Positions 5,996 to 13,847 of a stretch of 64,000 bases of DNA are shown here, in pieces (within the stretch, counting starts at the first letter, position 1; each line of letters starts with the position of its first letter). Position numbers and translations under genes: made by a program. The notes under the pieces were generated by a model, which was not told the origin of the DNA, made no database searches, and worked only from the letters and a program-made list of their open reading frames with translations. Source of the DNA: Peptococcaceae bacterium BICA1-7 (lineage in GTDB: Bacteria; Bacillota; Desulfotomaculia; Desulfotomaculales; Desulfocucumaceae); NCBI GenBank assembly GCA_000802095.1, contig JUEB01000004.1, positions 1-64,000 of the forward strand. Direction: 5' to 3'.

Positions 5996-6967
5996 TCAGG
6001 CCGCTATGCGGTCATTTTTGCAATGATACTGATAACGTTCATGCAGTGTTCTTTTCTTAATTTGCCTTCGCTGAGCTATAATTGCTGGTGCTTTTCCAGC
6101 ATGGTAATCTGCCGGTGTAATCATACCCAGTGAGGTATGGTAATGCTCATTATTATACCAATCAAAAAAACCATTAAAGTATTCTTGAGCCTGGGCTAAA
6201 CTACTAAACCGCCCCGGGTAATCCGGATAGTTTTTTACGGTACTGAATAAGGATTCTATTTGCGGGTTATCATTGGGTGTTTGCGGCCTGGAAAAGTACT
6301 GGGTTACGCCTAATGTATTGAAAAAGAACCTGGTACTTTGTGACCTCATTTGCGAGCCACGGTCGCTTAACGAACGTGGCAGTGTATTAGACTTGTCCAA
6401 TAGCTTTTCATTTATAATGCCCATGTCCCAAAGGGTCTGGGCACAGTCACTGTCTAATCTATCGCTTACAAACCATGATACGGCTTTTCGGGTGTGGGTA
6501 TCCAACAAAGCATACAGGTAGTAAAATTTATATTTGGTTGTTGTTCTCAAATGGGTGATATCCCAACTCCATAATTGGTTGGGGCCATCGACAATGCCGG
6601 TATCGGGTTTGTTGTGCTTTTCACGGCGCTTGGCATAAACTCCACGGGGACCGTTAATCCCTTTAGCTTTCATGCGCTGCCAGTAGGTAACGTGGGATAT
6701 GTAGTACCCCGTTTGTTTCATGGTTTCGATGCTTAGCAATCGGCAACTGGCGTCGGCCAGTTTCCGACTGGCCAACATTTTGTCTACAATCTCGTTTTCC
6801 GCTGGAGTAAGAGCATTGTATGGTTTACCGGTCTTTTGAGCTGATTTGCGTTCATAGCACCCTTGTTTGGCCAGTATTCGCCATCTTTGAATGCGGCGTT
6901 CATTAATCTGTAATAGTTCACAGGTGCATTTTTGGCTAAGTCCGGCTCTCGTACCCTCATCAACCAA
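5996..6967 (-). CDS. IS3-family transposase OrfB (DDE integrase)
   Basis: The full catalytic region is present: the first Asp in LWSWDITHL, the second in SLSDRGSQ, and the Glu in NDNPQIESLF, with the C-terminal FNGFFDWYNNEHYHTSLG and TPADYH motifs of IS3/IS481-type integrases. The annotated start is a TTG. The frame is open further upstream to the slippery run at 7,039-7,047, so the active product is probably an OrfAB fusion made by -1 frameshifting. All three acidic residues are intact, so the enzyme may be functional. Confidence 0.85.
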   Translation of the reverse strand: MVDEGTRAGLSQKCTCELLQINERRIQRWRILAKQGCYERKSAQKTGKPYNALTPAENEIVDKMLASRKLADASCRLLSIETMKQTGYYISHVTYWQRMKAKGINGPRGVYAKRREKHNKPDTGIVDGPNQLWSWDITHLRTTTKYKFYYLYALLDTHTRKAVSWFVSDRLDSDCAQTLWDMGIINEKLLDKSNTLPRSLSDRGSQMRSQSTRFFFNTLGVTQYFSRPQTPNDNPQIESLFSTVKNYPDYPGRFSSLAQAQEYFNGFFDWYNNEHYHTSLGMITPADYHAGKAPAIIAQRRQIKKRTLHERYQYHCKNDRIAA

Positions 6968-7029
6968 AGCCAGCAGTTCTAATCGCTTTTCACCGCTGAT
7001 ATGAATATTCTTTAGGTTGCCATAAAGGC

Positions 7030-7350
7030 CTATCTGTCTTTTTTTTTAAGTATTGTAAATTCAACCGCCAGATCAGCTAGAGCCTTTTCCTTTTGTTCCA
7101 ATTGGGAAAGCAGTGCGTTGTAATCTTCAGCGCTTACAGGTTCTGTATTCTTTGTTTTCTTACTTCTGCTTTTGAGGCTCTCAATGGCCCCGAATTCTAT
7201 GGTTTCTTCAATTACTCGAAGGTCGGAAAGGTGGAGGCCGTGTTGTCTTAATATCTCACCAACGGGGGCATCTTCGCCCCTGGTTGCAAGATAAATTTCA
7301 AATTTCTTTTTTGCTGTTAGCCGTGGGCGTTTGGTTTTCTTTTCCGTCAT
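7030..7350 (-). CDS. IS3-family OrfA (HTH DNA-binding protein)
   Basis: This basic protein of 106 residues has a helix-turn-helix region (ARLTAKKKFEIYLATRGED then VGEILRQHGLHLSDLRVIEE). Its C-terminal end is heptad-like (LLSQLEQKEKALADLAVEFTILKKK) and probably serves as the multimerisation zipper. It ends just after an A9 run that allows a -1 shift into the orfB frame. It provides terminal-repeat recognition for the transposase. Confidence 0.75.
   Translation of the reverse strand: MTEKKTKRPRLTAKKKFEIYLATRGEDAPVGEILRQHGLHLSDLRVIEETIEFGAIESLKSRSKKTKNTEPVSAEDYNALLSQLEQKEKALADLAVEFTILKKKDR
7039..7047 (-). promoter_or_regulatory. programmed -1 frameshift site (A9G) for OrfAB
   Basis: On the minus strand nine A residues followed by G sit at the end of orfA. 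Reading AAA AAA AAA GAC gives the OrfA stop two codons later. Re-reading one A gives AGA CAG ATA and an open frame running without stops into orfB. This is the standard IS3-family arrangement. Confidence 0.65.
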
Positions 7351-8134: not shown

Positions 8135-8900
8135 ATGATGAATGCGACGTTGAACAGGGAAAAAGGCACAGAAACTATCACCATTTCGCGTGCGGAATAT
8201 GAGTCGCTCAAGGCGCAGAACGCAGAGCTTTCACAGCAGATAAAATGGCTGATGGAGCAGATGCGACTTGCCAGGCATAAGCAGTTTGGCGCATCCAGCG
8301 AGAAGAGCGAATATAACCAGAACAATCTGTTCAACGAAGCGGAAGCAACTGCCGACGCTGAAGTCCCAGAACCGGAACTGACGGTTGTTGAGAAACATTA
8401 CCGTAAAAGAGCATCCGCGAACAAGGACAGACTTCCTCCGGATCTACCGGTGGAGACCATAGAACATTTTTTATCAGAAAAAGAGCAATCGTGTCCCGAG
8501 TGCGGGGAAGCTTTGCACATTATGGGCAAACAGATACGGCGAGAGCTTAAACTGATACCTGCCAAAGCAGTCATTGTCGAGCATATCAAATATGTATACT
8601 CATGTCGTGAATGCGAAAAGAAAGCGTGCCATGTGCCAATCATCAAGGCTCCTGTTGAAGAGCCGGTCATCAAAGGCAGCTTTGCTTCACCGGAAGCAGT
8701 AGCGCATATTATGACACAGAAGTTTGTTAGCGGAGTGCCGCTCTACCGGCAGGAACAGGAGTTTAACAGAAACGGCATCCTGCTTTCCAGACAGACTATG
8801 TCCAATTGGCTGATTAAATGCGCAGAGGATTGGCTTGAGCCGATATATGGCAAGCTGCACGAGCAATTATGCGCAAGAGAAGTCCTCCATGCCGATGAGT
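8135..8900 (+). pseudogene. tnpC: IS66-family transposase TnpC, N-terminal part (interrupted)
   Basis: The N-terminal half of the IS66 transposase is intact. It has a leucine-zipper-like segment (SLKAQNAELSQQIKWLMEQM), the RLARHKQFGASSEKSE motif, and a Cys4 zinc-binding segment (CPECGEALH then CRECEKK). The start of the catalytic domain ends in EVLHADE, with the first catalytic Asp. The RIT element is inserted right after this aspartate/glutamate, adding a short foreign tail before a stop at 8,948-8,950. The reading frame resumes at 12,070 with ETTMQVLHEPG. Confidence 0.85.
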
Positions 8901-8922
8901 TATGTGAAGCTTCACATAACTC
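8897..8922. repeat. 26-bp perfect palindrome at the RIT left junction
   Basis: GAGTTATGTGAAG is followed at once by its exact reverse complement, centred on AAGCTT. It overlaps the last tnpC codon and abuts the left terminal repeat. There is no counterpart at the right end, so it is either a left-specific recombination site or a by-product of insertion. Confidence 0.7.
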
Positions 8923-8948
8923 GTCTTATGTGGAGCCATATATTATGT
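8922..8948. repeat. RIT left terminal inverted repeat (27 bp)
   Basis: The sequence begins CGTCTTATGTGGAGCC and is the exact reverse complement of the repeat at the right end of the element. Confidence 0.85.
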
Positions 8949-9066
8949 AGAGTCGATCTTGATTAAGTTGAAAAGCTATGGCATTCCGGGCAATTAAGTC
9001 ATTTTTTTAGAACGACAACTCAACATAATGTTTTGATGTTATCCTCCAAAAAGGAGGTGCATCAAT

Positions 9067-10002
9067 ATGTATAACAAAACCGCAAAGATTCTTCTCAGGT
9101 ATAGTGATTATTTAGATATCCTGGAAGAATACCTGGATCTAGAAGAATTCAGGGACCTGTCACCATTAACAATTTCATCTAAAAGAGTGACAATTACATC
9201 TTTTATGAATTATCTTGGTGACCACAATGTGAAGGACTTTCATAACTGCATTCAAAGAAATGTGACTGGCTACTTGTCTTCCCTTACTAATCTATCTTCT
9301 TCTACCGTCAGCTCACGCACATTTATGTTACGTCACTTTTTTAATTTCTTAAACAGCAGAAACCTTACACTGTTTTCAGGTAATGAGCTGTTTCCGGTCA
9401 TATTTACCAACAAACGTGAACGTATACTTTCCTTTTATTCCATTGAGGAAATCAGGCGAATCGTCTCTGCCATAGATAGAGGTACGCCTTATGGAAAAAG
9501 GGATTTTGCCGTGGTACTGCTGGCTGCAGAACTTGGTATTCGCTCTGGAGACATCATCCGGTTAAAAATGTCAGATTTACATTGGGAACACGATACGATC
9601 GAGTTTGTTCAGTATAAGACTAAAGTTTTCAATCAACTGCCTTTGCTGGAAAATATCAAGTATGCGTTAATTGACTATCTCAAAAATGGGCGTCCAGAAA
9701 GCGACTTCGATTACGTTTTTATAGGCATAAAAAATGGCGGGAAGCCGTTGACTAACACCTGCGTACATCATACGGTTTCTAAATACTTCAAAAAGGCAGG
9801 CGTTGACATATCGGAACGTAAACATGGTCCACATGCTATGCGACATTCTCTGGCCAGTAGCATGCTCCATAACAATACCCCGATGCATGTAATCAAAGAG
9901 GTTTTGGGACATTCAAACATCAATACCACCAGAATGTATCTTAATATTGATGTTGACACCCTTAGAAAATTAGCATTGGAGGTGCCACATGAAACAGTAT
10001 GA
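9067..10002 (+). CDS. tyrosine recombinase, first of RIT trio
   Basis: This phage-integrase-family protein of 311 residues has an N-terminal SAM-like core-binding domain. Its C-terminal catalytic domain shows the first Arg in AELGIRSGDIIRL, HAMRHSLAS (H-x-x-R), GHSNINTTRMYL (His and the nucleophilic Tyr). A strong AAAGGAGGTG ribosome binding site precedes the ATG. Its end overlaps the next gene by 14 bp, so translation is coupled. In RIT elements the three recombinases are thought to act together; the separate role of each is not known. Confidence 0.9.
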   Translation: MYNKTAKILLRYSDYLDILEEYLDLEEFRDLSPLTISSKRVTITSFMNYLGDHNVKDFHNCIQRNVTGYLSSLTNLSSSTVSSRTFMLRHFFNFLNSRNLTLFSGNELFPVIFTNKRERILSFYSIEEIRRIVSAIDRGTPYGKRDFAVVLLAAELGIRSGDIIRLKMSDLHWEHDTIEFVQYKTKVFNQLPLLENIKYALIDYLKNGRPESDFDYVFIGIKNGGKPLTNTCVHHTVSKYFKKAGVDISERKHGPHAMRHSLASSMLHNNTPMHVIKEVLGHSNINTTRMYLNIDVDTLRKLALEVPHETV

Positions 10003-10966
10003 CACCTTCAATTTCCCAGCGACTTACCGCGACATTGCTTTGGAGTATGTGGATTACAAGCATTCCCTCGGATTTAAGTATTCCTATAGCGAACAGGCCG
10101 AAGTAAACCGTATGCTTAGTTTTATATACGCTAATTCAAAATCAGATCCTATACTGGCTTTACAGCCGGAACTGGTTACTGTATATGCATCGAAGAGGGG
10201 CAATGAAAAGGTCCGTAGCCTTCATATAAGACAATCCCATATAAGACAGTTTGCCCTTTTCTTAAACCTGAGAGGCATTCCAGCTTATGTTTACCCAAAG
10301 GAACTGGTTAAAACTACCGAAGACTTTGTTCCGTATATCTTTACCAAAGATGAAATCAATCGGATTCTTCGGGAAGCTGATGTAATTGAGCCTAACAAGA
10401 ATAAGTTTGTAAATACCCCTTATATATATCCTGCCGTAATCCGTATGCTGTACGGATGCGGATTGCGCGTAAGTGAAGCCCTTGCCCTTAAATGTGAACA
10501 CGTTGATCTAGATAACGGAATCCTTGTAATTATGAATGGCAAAAACAATGTGTCCCGTCTGGTTCCGGTGTCTGAATCACTGCGCCAGTATTTATCCATA
10601 TATGATTCAAAGGTTGAAAGAGCTGGAAATCCATACTTTTTCCCCGCGCTCCACAATGAAAGATACGCTTCACTAACCATCCTGAATCAGTTTAGAAGGT
10701 TAGAGAAGAAAGCCGGGGTATCCCAGTTAAGCAATGGAAAGTACCCACGCGTTCATGACCTCAGACATACTTTTAGTGTTCATGCATTGGAGCAGATGAT
10801 TCACAAAGGAATGGATCCTTACTGCTCACTTCCGGTACTTAGTACCTATCTCGGGCACAAGGGTATTGAATCAACGGAAAAATATCTCCGGATGACAAAA
10901 CAGTACTTCATTGACATTTTGCATTTCAGCCACCAAGATGCTGAAAAGATTTTTCCGGAGGTATGA
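9989..10966 (+). CDS. tyrosine recombinase, second of RIT trio
   Basis: This integrase-family protein of 325 residues has a complete catalytic set: LYGCGLRVSEALAL (Arg I), RVHDLRHTFSVHAL (H-x-x-R-H) and GHKGIESTEKYLRM (His/Trp position and Tyr). It begins inside the 3' end of the first recombinase gene and its last codons overlap the third gene by 4 bp (ATGA-type coupling). The tight coupling argues for fixed stoichiometry of the three proteins. Confidence 0.9.
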   Translation: MKQYDTFNFPATYRDIALEYVDYKHSLGFKYSYSEQAEVNRMLSFIYANSKSDPILALQPELVTVYASKRGNEKVRSLHIRQSHIRQFALFLNLRGIPAYVYPKELVKTTEDFVPYIFTKDEINRILREADVIEPNKNKFVNTPYIYPAVIRMLYGCGLRVSEALALKCEHVDLDNGILVIMNGKNNVSRLVPVSESLRQYLSIYDSKVERAGNPYFFPALHNERYASLTILNQFRRLEKKAGVSQLSNGKYPRVHDLRHTFSVHALEQMIHKGMDPYCSLPVLSTYLGHKGIESTEKYLRMTKQYFIDILHFSHQDAEKIFPEV

Positions 10967-11979
10967 CTATGCACAGGAAAGAATTATCTTATTATGTAAG
11001 CAGCTTCTTTACGGAATATCTTGGTAATGAGGCAGGTTTGTCAATCAATACCATAAAGTCATACCGGGATGCATTCATACTGTTTTTTAAATACCTCGAG
11101 GAAACCGGTATCTGCAAGATCAGCAAACTAAAAATGGATACGCTAAATGCAGATAATGTAATCGGATTTCTGGACTGGCTGGAACAGTCAAGAGGCTGTA
11201 GCATCAGTTCAAGAAATCAGCGGCTTGCTGCATTAAAAGCTTTTTGTGGTTATGTTGCACGCAAAAGTTCGGAGGAAAGCGCCCTGTGTCAGGCTGTCTT
11301 AAAAATCCGTGTTAAGAAGGCCCCACAGAAGTCGGTTGATTATCTAAGTCTAGATGCTGTTGAATATCTCCTAAAAATACCCGACAGTCGTTCTTTGCAA
11401 GGTATCCGCGATCTTGCGATGATTGCATTAATGTATGAATCCGGCTGCAGAGTTCAGGAACTTATTAATTTGAGGGTGGGTAACATTGCCTTCCGAAGCC
11501 CAAACACGGTAACCCTTACCGGAAAAGGAAACAAGGCAAGGGTGATACCAATCAGTGCCAACGCTGCGAATATTATTAAAGCTTATCTGAACCCTACCGG
11601 CATTTGCGACACAGCGCATCCAGTGTTTGTCAACAGACACGATAAGCCCTTGTCGAGATCAGGGGTGTCCTATGTCCTCGGCAAATATGGGGACATCGCT
11701 CGTAAAGCCAGGCCAGAATTATATCCATCTAAGCTGCACCCTCATATCTTAAGGCATTCTAAAGCGATGCATCTGCTTGAAAATGGGGTGAACCTAATAT
11801 ATATCAGGGATTTCCTTGGACATTCGTCTGTCACCACAACAGAAATCTATGCAAAATGCAACCCAGAGCTGAAAAGAAAATACATTGAACAGGCAGGTAG
11901 TTTGATTACGGACACGGTTGAAGAATACAGTGAGAGTGAAAAAGAAGCTTTAATTGCCTGGCTACGTAAAAACATCTAA
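10963..11979 (+). CDS. tyrosine recombinase, third of RIT trio
   Basis: This XerC/D-like recombinase of 338 residues has MYESGCRVQELINLRVGN (Arg I), HPHILRHSKAMHLL (H-x-x-R) and GHSSVTTTEIYAKC (His and Tyr). A C-terminal extension of about 35 residues after the nucleophile is acidic and predicted helical. It may serve as a swap segment between partners. A subterminal repeat (ATTATGTTGAGT) and a hairpin (GCCGCC...GGGCGGC) follow within 40 bp of the stop and may terminate the transcript. Confidence 0.9.
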   Translation: MTMHRKELSYYVSSFFTEYLGNEAGLSINTIKSYRDAFILFFKYLEETGICKISKLKMDTLNADNVIGFLDWLEQSRGCSISSRNQRLAALKAFCGYVARKSSEESALCQAVLKIRVKKAPQKSVDYLSLDAVEYLLKIPDSRSLQGIRDLAMIALMYESGCRVQELINLRVGNIAFRSPNTVTLTGKGNKARVIPISANAANIIKAYLNPTGICDTAHPVFVNRHDKPLSRSGVSYVLGKYGDIARKARPELYPSKLHPHILRHSKAMHLLENGVNLIYIRDFLGHSSVTTTEIYAKCNPELKRKYIEQAGSLITDTVEEYSESEKEALIAWLRKNI

Positions 11980-12043
11980 ATAATTATGTTGAGTGGTTAT
12001 GCCGCCAATCCCCCATCTGGGCGGCATGACTGCCGAGGACTTT

Positions 12044-12070
12044 ACATAATATATGGCTCCACATAAGACG
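12044..12070. repeat. RIT right terminal inverted repeat (27 bp)
   Basis: This is the exact reverse complement of 8,922-8,948, ending ...CTCCACATAAGACG. The IS66 tnpC frame resumes immediately after it (GAA ACG ACA ATG). Confidence 0.85.
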
Positions 12071-12850
12071 AAACGACAATGCAGGTTCTTCACGAGCCGG
12101 GAAAATCAGCCCAGAGCAAGAGTTACATGTGGCTATACCGGACAAGTGGAGATACAAATATGCCCATTGTTCTGTACGACTACCAGCCGGACAGAAGCGG
12201 CAAGCGCCCGGCAGCGTTTTTGAAGGGGTTCAAGGGGTATCTGCACACCGACGGATACGCGGGATACCATTCGAATCTGCCGGAAGACGTAGTTATCGTA
12301 GGCTGTTGGTCACATGCCCGCCGGAAGTTTGATGAGGCGCTGAAGGGGCTGGCCGAAAAAGATCGGGAAGGCTCCCTTGCCCAGAAGGGCAAACGATACT
12401 GTGACAAACTATTCAGAATCGAAAAGGAGCTAAAGGACATTTCTCCCCAAGAACGGCAAAAAAAGCGTCAGGAACGGGCCAGGCCTGTGCTTGATGATTT
12501 TTTGACATGGCTGAAATCAATCACCCCCGCACCGAAATCCGGTATAGGCAAGGCGGTATTCTACACTTTAGGTCAGTATCAAGCCCTTCGTCATTGACCG
12601 GAAAAATTTCCTTTTTGCCAATACTGCCCGAGGCGCCGTAAGTAGCGCTGTGATATTCAGCATCATAGAAACCGCAAAGGAAAATGGGCTTAATCCATAC
12701 GCCTATTTGACGTACATATTCAAAGCCGCGCCAAATCTGGACATAGAAGACCCGGAGCAACTGAAGTCGTTACTGCCGAACCATGCGCCTGATTGGTGCA
12801 AAATTTCGAAGTGCGCGGAAAAGGAGAACGCCCATGAGACGGACGAATAT
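12070..12850 (+). pseudogene. tnpC: IS66-family transposase TnpC, C-terminal part with internal deletion
   Basis: The frame resumes with ETTMQVLHEPGKSAQSKSYMW, followed by the second catalytic Asp region (GYLHTDGYAGYH) and the GCWSHARRKFDEAL motif. At about 12,575 GQY jumps straight to KPFVIDRKNFLFANTARGA in a shifted frame. The roughly 18 residues that normally carry N-x-R-A-E-R, with the catalytic Glu, are gone. The remainder continues to NHAPDWCKI. Even without the RIT insertion this transposase would be inactive. Confidence 0.85.
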
Positions 12851-13148: not shown

Positions 13149-13847
13149 TTATATCGAGCCGCCACTGATTGACAAGGTGACGGCTCTTTTGACGCTTACC
13201 TTAGAATAGCTGTAACTGGCCAACCCGTCGGGTTCTTTCCCCTCAAAGTAGGTGGATGTCGTGTCCCAAAACACCATGTCTACCTCGAGGTCAAATAAAT
13301 TCTTGGTCCGCTCAAAAAGGTCAAGCTCTATACTGTCCTTGTTTTCCGAGAGTAGGTCCAGAGATCTGTAAAAGTGGTTTGGCAGCAAATCTAAAAAAGA
13401 TGGGCGGTATACCTCATCAATCCATTTAATTACACCCCGCTTTGACAGTGGGTCACTGATCCTGTTTAAAACCATGGCGTAAACCGCCTCGGCCAGATGG
13501 AAGCTGACATGTGCCTTGGAAAAGTGGCTTTTAAAAATACTATGCAGTCCCAGTTGCTCCCAAAGGTGCCTGAAAATTAAATCCGGGCCCCACTCCCTGG
13601 CACTGTGCACCATGAGTTTCTCAGCTTCGGCCTGAATCCATTTTTTCTTTGAAAACTTAACCAGGCTTGCGACGAGACGATCCAGGCTGCCTTCCTGCAA
13701 ATCTTCAATGCGGCCCAGGTTTAAAACTACCTTCTGGCGCACCTTGTCGTTCTCACGCACTGATTCAACTATCTGTATATAGGTTCTTTGGGAACCATCT
13801 TTGTTGGTAAAAGTTTTTGTTCGTGCATACATGGCACTTTTTACCAC
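13149..13847 (-). pseudogene. IS1634-type (IS4-like) transposase, C-terminally truncated
   Basis: The N-terminal 230 residues of a DDE transposase are present, including YIQIVESVRENDKVRQKVVLNLGR and the catalytic-Asp segment DMVFWDTTSTYFEG followed by GLASYSYSK. The protein then ends in unrelated residues at the junction with the IS66 right end. The remaining catalytic residues are missing. The start is a GTG/ATG region reading MVKSAMYARTKTF; the second Met is also possible. Confidence 0.75.

Follow-up and report, generated by a model that had tools for sequence, protein, structure and literature searches.

Recombinase-in-trio (RIT) elements have been known since 2009. The RITs of Cupriavidus metallidurans CH34 and pHG1 (Van Houdt et al., Ricker et al.) consist of three tyrosine recombinase genes that overlap one another and are bounded by terminal inverted repeats. 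In CH34, an IS66 gene is interrupted by one copy and radC by another (PMC2864759); insertion into IS66, radC and a Tn6049-type transposase is already known (PMC3414803, PMC2864759), and a palindrome overlapping an RIT inverted repeat has been described (PMC3414803). In a table of a 2023 paper, the target and movement of RIT are listed as not tested (PMC10214605). Here, the RIT element located in a 64,000-nucleotide stretch of the genome of Peptococcaceae bacterium BICA1-7 (assembly GCA_000802095.1, contig JUEB01000004.1, positions 1–64,000; hereinafter, the window) was compared with other RIT loci. The element lies within the IS66 transposase gene tnpC, and it was quite likely integrated at the codons HA-DE-T by tyrosine-recombinase site-specific recombination from a circle with a double attachment site.

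Strand-biased circularizing integrative elements (SE) share with RIT the tyrosine recombinases, imperfect terminal repeats and a 6-bp spacer passed between sites (PMC10214605). In SE, the proteins are IntA, Tfp, IntB and Srap and there is one joint, whereas RIT encode three recombinases and have a double core that includes a palindrome; only three recombinase genes, and not the set intA-tfp-intB-srap, were found between the repeats in the window. The Tn554 family likewise has tyrosine recombinases, target specificity and a 6-bp footprint, but encodes two recombinases and TnpC, and the palindromic module is not described there (PMC10214605). The Tn554 set of TnpA, TnpB and a small non-recombinase TnpC is not represented in the window, where the third gene encodes a full tyrosine recombinase. 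RIT pass a 6-bp spacer like SE and Tn554, yet belong to neither. GInts are also clusters of recombinase genes with attL/attR variants (PMC5385486), but have four conserved genes, carry cargo and are often inserted at the ends of ssb genes. By gene order, catalytic residues, repeats and kinship, the window element is an RIT; it is 3.1 kb long, compared with about 3.5 kb for the usual RIT, and its RitA is shortened.

Structure of the element and its empty site

Both flanks of the element belong to one IS66 tnpC, as the initial annotation had supposed: DDE_Tnp_IS66 was detected on both sides, and the frame resumes across the insertion as HA-DE-TTMQVL. The uninterrupted tnpC of locus L134, from another genome of the same order, is open for 541 aa and is 94% and 91–92% identical to the window flanks; it contains the empty site GCC-GATGAA-ACG with no trace of the repeats, so that the target is indeed reconstructable. 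The repeats are also absent from L160, an uninterrupted IS66 paralogue in Sporolactobacillus nakayamae, 94.6% identical to the flank of the interrupted copy in the same genome; the idea that they are native to tnpC thus fails. The initial annotation overlooked the location at catalytic codons and a second lesion of tnpC, in which about 68 bp near 12575 (12570–12600) are missing compared with L134; this lesion by itself disrupts the frame, irrespective of RIT. Because of this deletion, removal of RIT would not restore tnpC. No other IS66 was found in this genome, the uninterrupted copies L134 and L160 being from other genomes, and a plasmid search with the IS66 flank gave no match.

The layout in the window is GATGAG, TTATGTGAAGCTTCACATAA, CTCGTC, the element (8926–12066) and GACGAA. 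The inserted DNA comprises positions 8900–12072, and its left part, 8900–8925, consists of a 20-bp palindrome and an inverted hexamer. The span first proposed, 8898–12070, correctly set an RIT between repeats, but its boundary did not take the left palindromic module into account. The perfect 27-bp inverted repeats claimed earlier were recovered at 8921–8947 and 12045–12071, nested in a 34-bp pair with 97% identity, which corresponds to the length of about 28–34 bp typical of RIT. The subterminal inverted pair, previously placed at 9,018 and 11,983, is real (CTCAACATAA and TTATGTTGAG, Table 1) and repeats the terminal half-site TTATGTNGAG. The palindrome is composed of two copies of the half-site, with the consensus TTATGNNNAG, which also makes up the subterminal repeats and the ends of the element. 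No second RIT copy was found in this genome; the element is single-copy.

Close relatives at the HADE codons of IS66

Trios with RitC 82–91% identical to that of the window were found in nine genomes. The same repeats flank the trio in related genomes, which removes the doubt that they might be absent around other trios. Besides the window, seven loci retain tnpC on either side of the element, or a part sufficient for locating the insertion (L008, L009, L010, L012, L013, L014 and L015); in L011, both flanks are downstream tnpC halves, and in L007 the contig ends at the element. Insertion at the HADE codons was found in every resolvable close relative. Forward orientation was found in the window, L010, L012 and L015, whereas L008, L009 and L014 carry the element reversed; both orientations are present in S. 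nakayamae, and the palindrome is on the HADE side in all resolvable close relatives, whatever the orientation. The gene ritC of L012 (Sporolactobacillus terrae) is frameshifted, and this copy is probably dead.

A decayed relic of chance insertion at a random position of IS66, with no target rule, would agree with the second tnpC lesion and the single copy in this genome. Such an origin is already contradicted by the recurrence of the same codons, in both orientations, in close relatives from several genera, and of unrelated RIT families at motifs of their own (see below), and is given practically no credence.

General plan of RIT loci

When 398 genomes of the phylum were searched with a RitC profile, relatives were detected in 48. 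Loci from plasmids and genomes of Proteobacteria and Actinobacteria were added to this set, and boundaries were assigned by an automatic caller. The plan hexamer–palindrome–hexamer was found in full at 60 RIT loci from several phyla, with the palindrome adjoining the left end in 30 loci and the right end in 30. The outer hexamer coincides with the far hexamer in 38 of the 60 loci (0.2% between unrelated loci), the structure score is at least 25 in 59 of 60 (0.5% of decoys), and the module arms pair at 8 or more of 10 positions in 49 of 60, these statistics being somewhat optimistic because the caller picked boundaries by best fit. Loci situated at contig ends or having decayed ends were not counted, among them L068, L072, L079, L124, L126 and L127. 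Several genomes contain two to four identical RIT copies. Judging by the sequences compared, the presence of several identical copies at separate sites of other genomes implies transposition, and it is from such comparisons that we infer the movement of RIT.

Many modules are near-perfect palindromes, which could point to a folded single-strand site similar to the attC hairpin of integrons, with one element strand as the substrate. Modules with only 5–8 of 10 pairs, however, are conserved in the outer TTATG/CATAA and variable in the middle, as two double-strand half-sites (TTATGNNNAG) would be, and the element ends carry the same half-site without a hairpin. The hairpin site was rejected on this pattern, and we regard it as very improbable.

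Target motifs

Target genes were assigned using Pfam, which confirms them, and by motif reading. In IS66, the targets are HA-DE (the first catalytic Asp), CWAH and DNN-x-SER; in IS21 IstA, V-DW, PD-NLK and KG-x-x-E (D1, D2 and E); in IstB, Walker A and Walker B. Reverse transcriptases of group II introns and others are interrupted at PQ-GG or L-PIG, IS630 at DEKSQ (L016, L019), tyrosine recombinases at H-x-L-RH (L017, L101), and the IS110 target adjoins KND. Other targets are GGSP-CQ of C5-methylase and SC-GIH of amidoligase. The target of L080 is, from its motif only, probably the nucleophile Tyr of a tyrosine recombinase. Except for IstA, the catalytic assignments are presumed from general family knowledge. 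The IstA motifs agree with the published catalytic residues D124, D187 and E233 (PMC11208146), including the neighbours K126, N188 and K190. Taken together, these motifs suggest that each RIT family has its own conserved motif, mostly catalytic codons in genes of other mobile elements.

In L017, an RIT is located within ritC of another RIT, at the HxLRH catalytic codons. In the viral, phage-like contigs L183, L184 and L185, RIT ends with the palindrome are present, and the target itself ends in the half-site-like CATAA. Three junction matches in viral contigs were rejected as circles, being target sequence that resembles the half-site.

Module side, element orientation and the proposed mechanism

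The side of the module is constant within the target class in 49 of 49 loci, belonging to 14 classes with two or more loci each, and the orientation of the element varies in ten of these classes. Five groups contain near-identical copies in opposite orientations, and in each of them the asymmetric palindrome is reversed along with the element (L075/L077 vs L076; L023 vs L020; L104/L106/L107 vs L105; L087 vs L086; L093 vs L092). Between copies L086/L087 and L105/L106 the hexamers are permuted, as predicted from a circle. Native hexamers are mostly on the module side (L026, L073, L121–L123), with the foreign hexamer at the far end.

According to the proposed mechanism, the crossover hexamer would be GAYGAR at the first catalytic Asp codons of the IS66 transposase. 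The mobile form would most likely be a double-stranded circle. At its junction, the right end would be followed by a hexamer, the 20-bp palindrome, the inverted hexamer and the left end, and two oppositely directed core sites would thus make up a near-dyad attachment site. The element would be inserted forward if the target hexamer recombines with one core and reversed if it recombines with the other; the palindrome would land on the same target side whichever core is used, and the middle hexamer, not used in that integration, would travel along as a record of an earlier site. A circle in which either core is usable would account for the fixed module side, free orientation, flipping of the module and permuted hexamers. 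Binding of particular half-sites by particular Rit proteins would likewise be a putative part of this mechanism.

A different origin of the two orientations would be retention of the palindrome in the target after the first insertion, with later inversion of the element in place between the inverted hexamers. The hexamers at the two element ends are inverted repeats and would permit such inversion, and in the diverged pair L130/L131 the module stays in the frame of the target while the element is reversed. However, module order follows the element and not the target in the five near-identical groups, which are at different sites, and copies at new sites bring the module along; inversion in place is therefore considered unlikely.

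Core exchange between the module side of one copy and another target or copy would produce an element between two downstream halves without the module, an element between two upstream halves with two modules, and a solo module. In L011 (IS66) and L019 (IS630), RIT is located between two downstream halves of the transposase gene, with no palindrome. In L091 (G344:C1:510300-519300), the target halves on both sides of RIT are upstream halves, and each end of the element adjoins a palindrome. Locus L181 (G344:C1:565111-565130) is a solo 20-bp palindrome with hexamers between two inverted upstream IstB halves, with no element, and its arrangement fits the predicted reciprocal product of core exchange. 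A reciprocal solo module was sought in the genomes of L011 and L019, and none was found.

The circle could be made by strand-biased copy-out/copy-in, as has been proposed for SE and Tn554, so that the donor stays and excision restores no empty site. This route can be combined with the double-core circle and differs only in how the circle is made. It would agree with the carrying of the 6-bp spacer from the donor to the new site, a rule also reported for SE (PMC10214605), with the distribution of native and foreign hexamers and with the identical copies within genomes. On the other hand, static genomes cannot tell it from cut-and-paste, RIT have no additional Tfp, Srap or TnpC proteins, and a double core is not described for SE or Tn554 (PMC10214605); copy-out/copy-in is therefore retained as a tentative possibility.

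Several observations weigh against site-specific integration from a double-core circle at catalytic codons. Non-catalytic targets were also found (IS66 CWAH, strawberry notch, ArdC, methylase NDQGG and AAA_22), and target arms, compared by eye, have no clear likeness to the element half-sites. The pair L130/L131 fits inversion in place, and L085 carries its native-like hexamer on the other side from L026, L073 and the strawberry-notch copies. The circle junction was found in no contig of the 398 genomes, and because no circles were found in the assemblies, the circular intermediate is one that we infer.

The three recombinases

The initial annotation recognised three overlapping, apparently intact tyrosine recombinases, which the open reading frames, Pfam and catalytic motifs bear out. 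RitA, RitB and RitC each match Pfam Phage_integrase and keep the catalytic R, HxxR, H and Y motifs; the gene order is A-B-C, ritA overlapping ritB by 14 bp and ritB overlapping ritC by 4 bp, compared with 4–8 bp in published RIT (PMC3414803). RitC is about 40% identical to RitC of pHG1 and other Cupriavidus over 98% of its length, and its sequence alignment shows a C-terminal extension, which may correspond to the extra C-terminal helix of RitC.

Compared with the usual RIT, the window RitA lacks the first ~100 residues (about 103; residue 13 aligns with residue 116 of 416-aa RitAs), and a good ribosome-binding site precedes the shortened start. RitA contains one SAM-like domain and not two consecutive core-binding domains, a trait reported for the protein subgroup and not for the RIT element as such (PMC8138268). 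RITs of the IstA-D1 type also have a short RitA.

In a nearest-neighbour test of which Rit protein tracks the target, the counts were 17 of 20 for RitA, 18 of 20 for RitB and 15 of 20 for RitC, the latter being the most conserved across target classes. This gives a weak indication that RitA or RitB may be better candidates than RitC for target tracking; the trio evolves together.

Table 1. Features of the RIT element and the interrupted tnpC in the window
Feature	Position	Strand	Basis
5' part of IS66 tnpC, ends ...LHA-DE	8135–8899	+	zf-IS66 and DDE_Tnp_IS66; 94% identical to uninterrupted L134
Outer hexamer GATGAG (codons D-E), putative target-side crossover region	8894–8899	+	GATGAA in empty sites L134 and L160; GAYGAR in all close relatives
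20-bp palindromic module TTATGTGAAG-CTTCACATAA, two half-sites back to back	8900–8919	+	absent from empty IS66; like modules in 60 RIT loci
Inner inverted hexamer CTCGTC (other strand GACGAG)	8920–8925	-	comparison of close relatives and of 60 loci
Element proper, 3141 bp, ends TTATGTGGAG...CTCCACATAA	8926–12066	+	repeat analysis, locus comparison
Left terminal half-site TTATGTGGAG	8926–8935	+	repeat analysis
Left inner half-site TTATGTAGAG	8943–8952	+	
Left subterminal half-site CTCAACATAA	9019–9028	-	repeat analysis
ritA, 311 aa, short form, AAGGAGGTG directly upstream of ATG	9067–10002	+	Pfam, alignment
ritB, 325 aa, tyrosine recombinase	9989–10966	+	Pfam, alignment
ritC, 338 aa, tyrosine recombinase	10963–11979	+	Pfam, alignment
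Right subterminal half-site TTATGTTGAG	11984–11993	+	repeat analysis
Right inner half-site CTTTACATAA	12040–12049	-	
Right terminal half-site CTCCACATAA	12057–12066	-	repeat analysis
Right hexamer GACGAA, tnpC resuming (DE-TTM)	12067–12072	+	close relatives, empty sites
3' part of IS66 tnpC, frame broken by ~68-bp deletion at ~12575	12073–12597	+	Pfam, comparison with L134

Further transposase-like open reading frames are located on the minus strand beside IS66 (5996–7350 and 13149–13847), which suggests an insertion-element cluster.

Implications for the biology of RIT elements

Provisionally, the target rule, the hexamer–palindrome–hexamer plan and the double core are not stated in the RIT literature surveyed, a set without two key RIT papers of 2009 and 2013, and a dyad double attachment site on a 20-bp palindrome is, with the same reserve, not described for other tyrosine-recombinase elements in the literature surveyed. 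With somewhat less confidence than for the window element, though still on balance, we favour regarding RITs as a class as active-site homing transposons. Each lineage would recognise one conserved motif, for the most part at catalytic codons of genes for transposases, ATPases, reverse transcriptases and recombinases, and all lineages would integrate from a circle with such a site. Inteins and homing introns, an analogy only, also insert in codons of conserved active-site motifs; their enzymes are unrelated, and they are spliced out so that the host gene works, whereas RIT destroys the host gene.

The comparative rule predicts exact targets, junctions, both orientations and the circle sequence, so that an assay may be designed from sequence alone. 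Several kinds of half-sites to bind would be a natural reason for three recombinases. The results suggest that homing to those codons that are most conserved in other mobile elements may be a way for a mobile element to spread, with loss of the enzymes that it hits.

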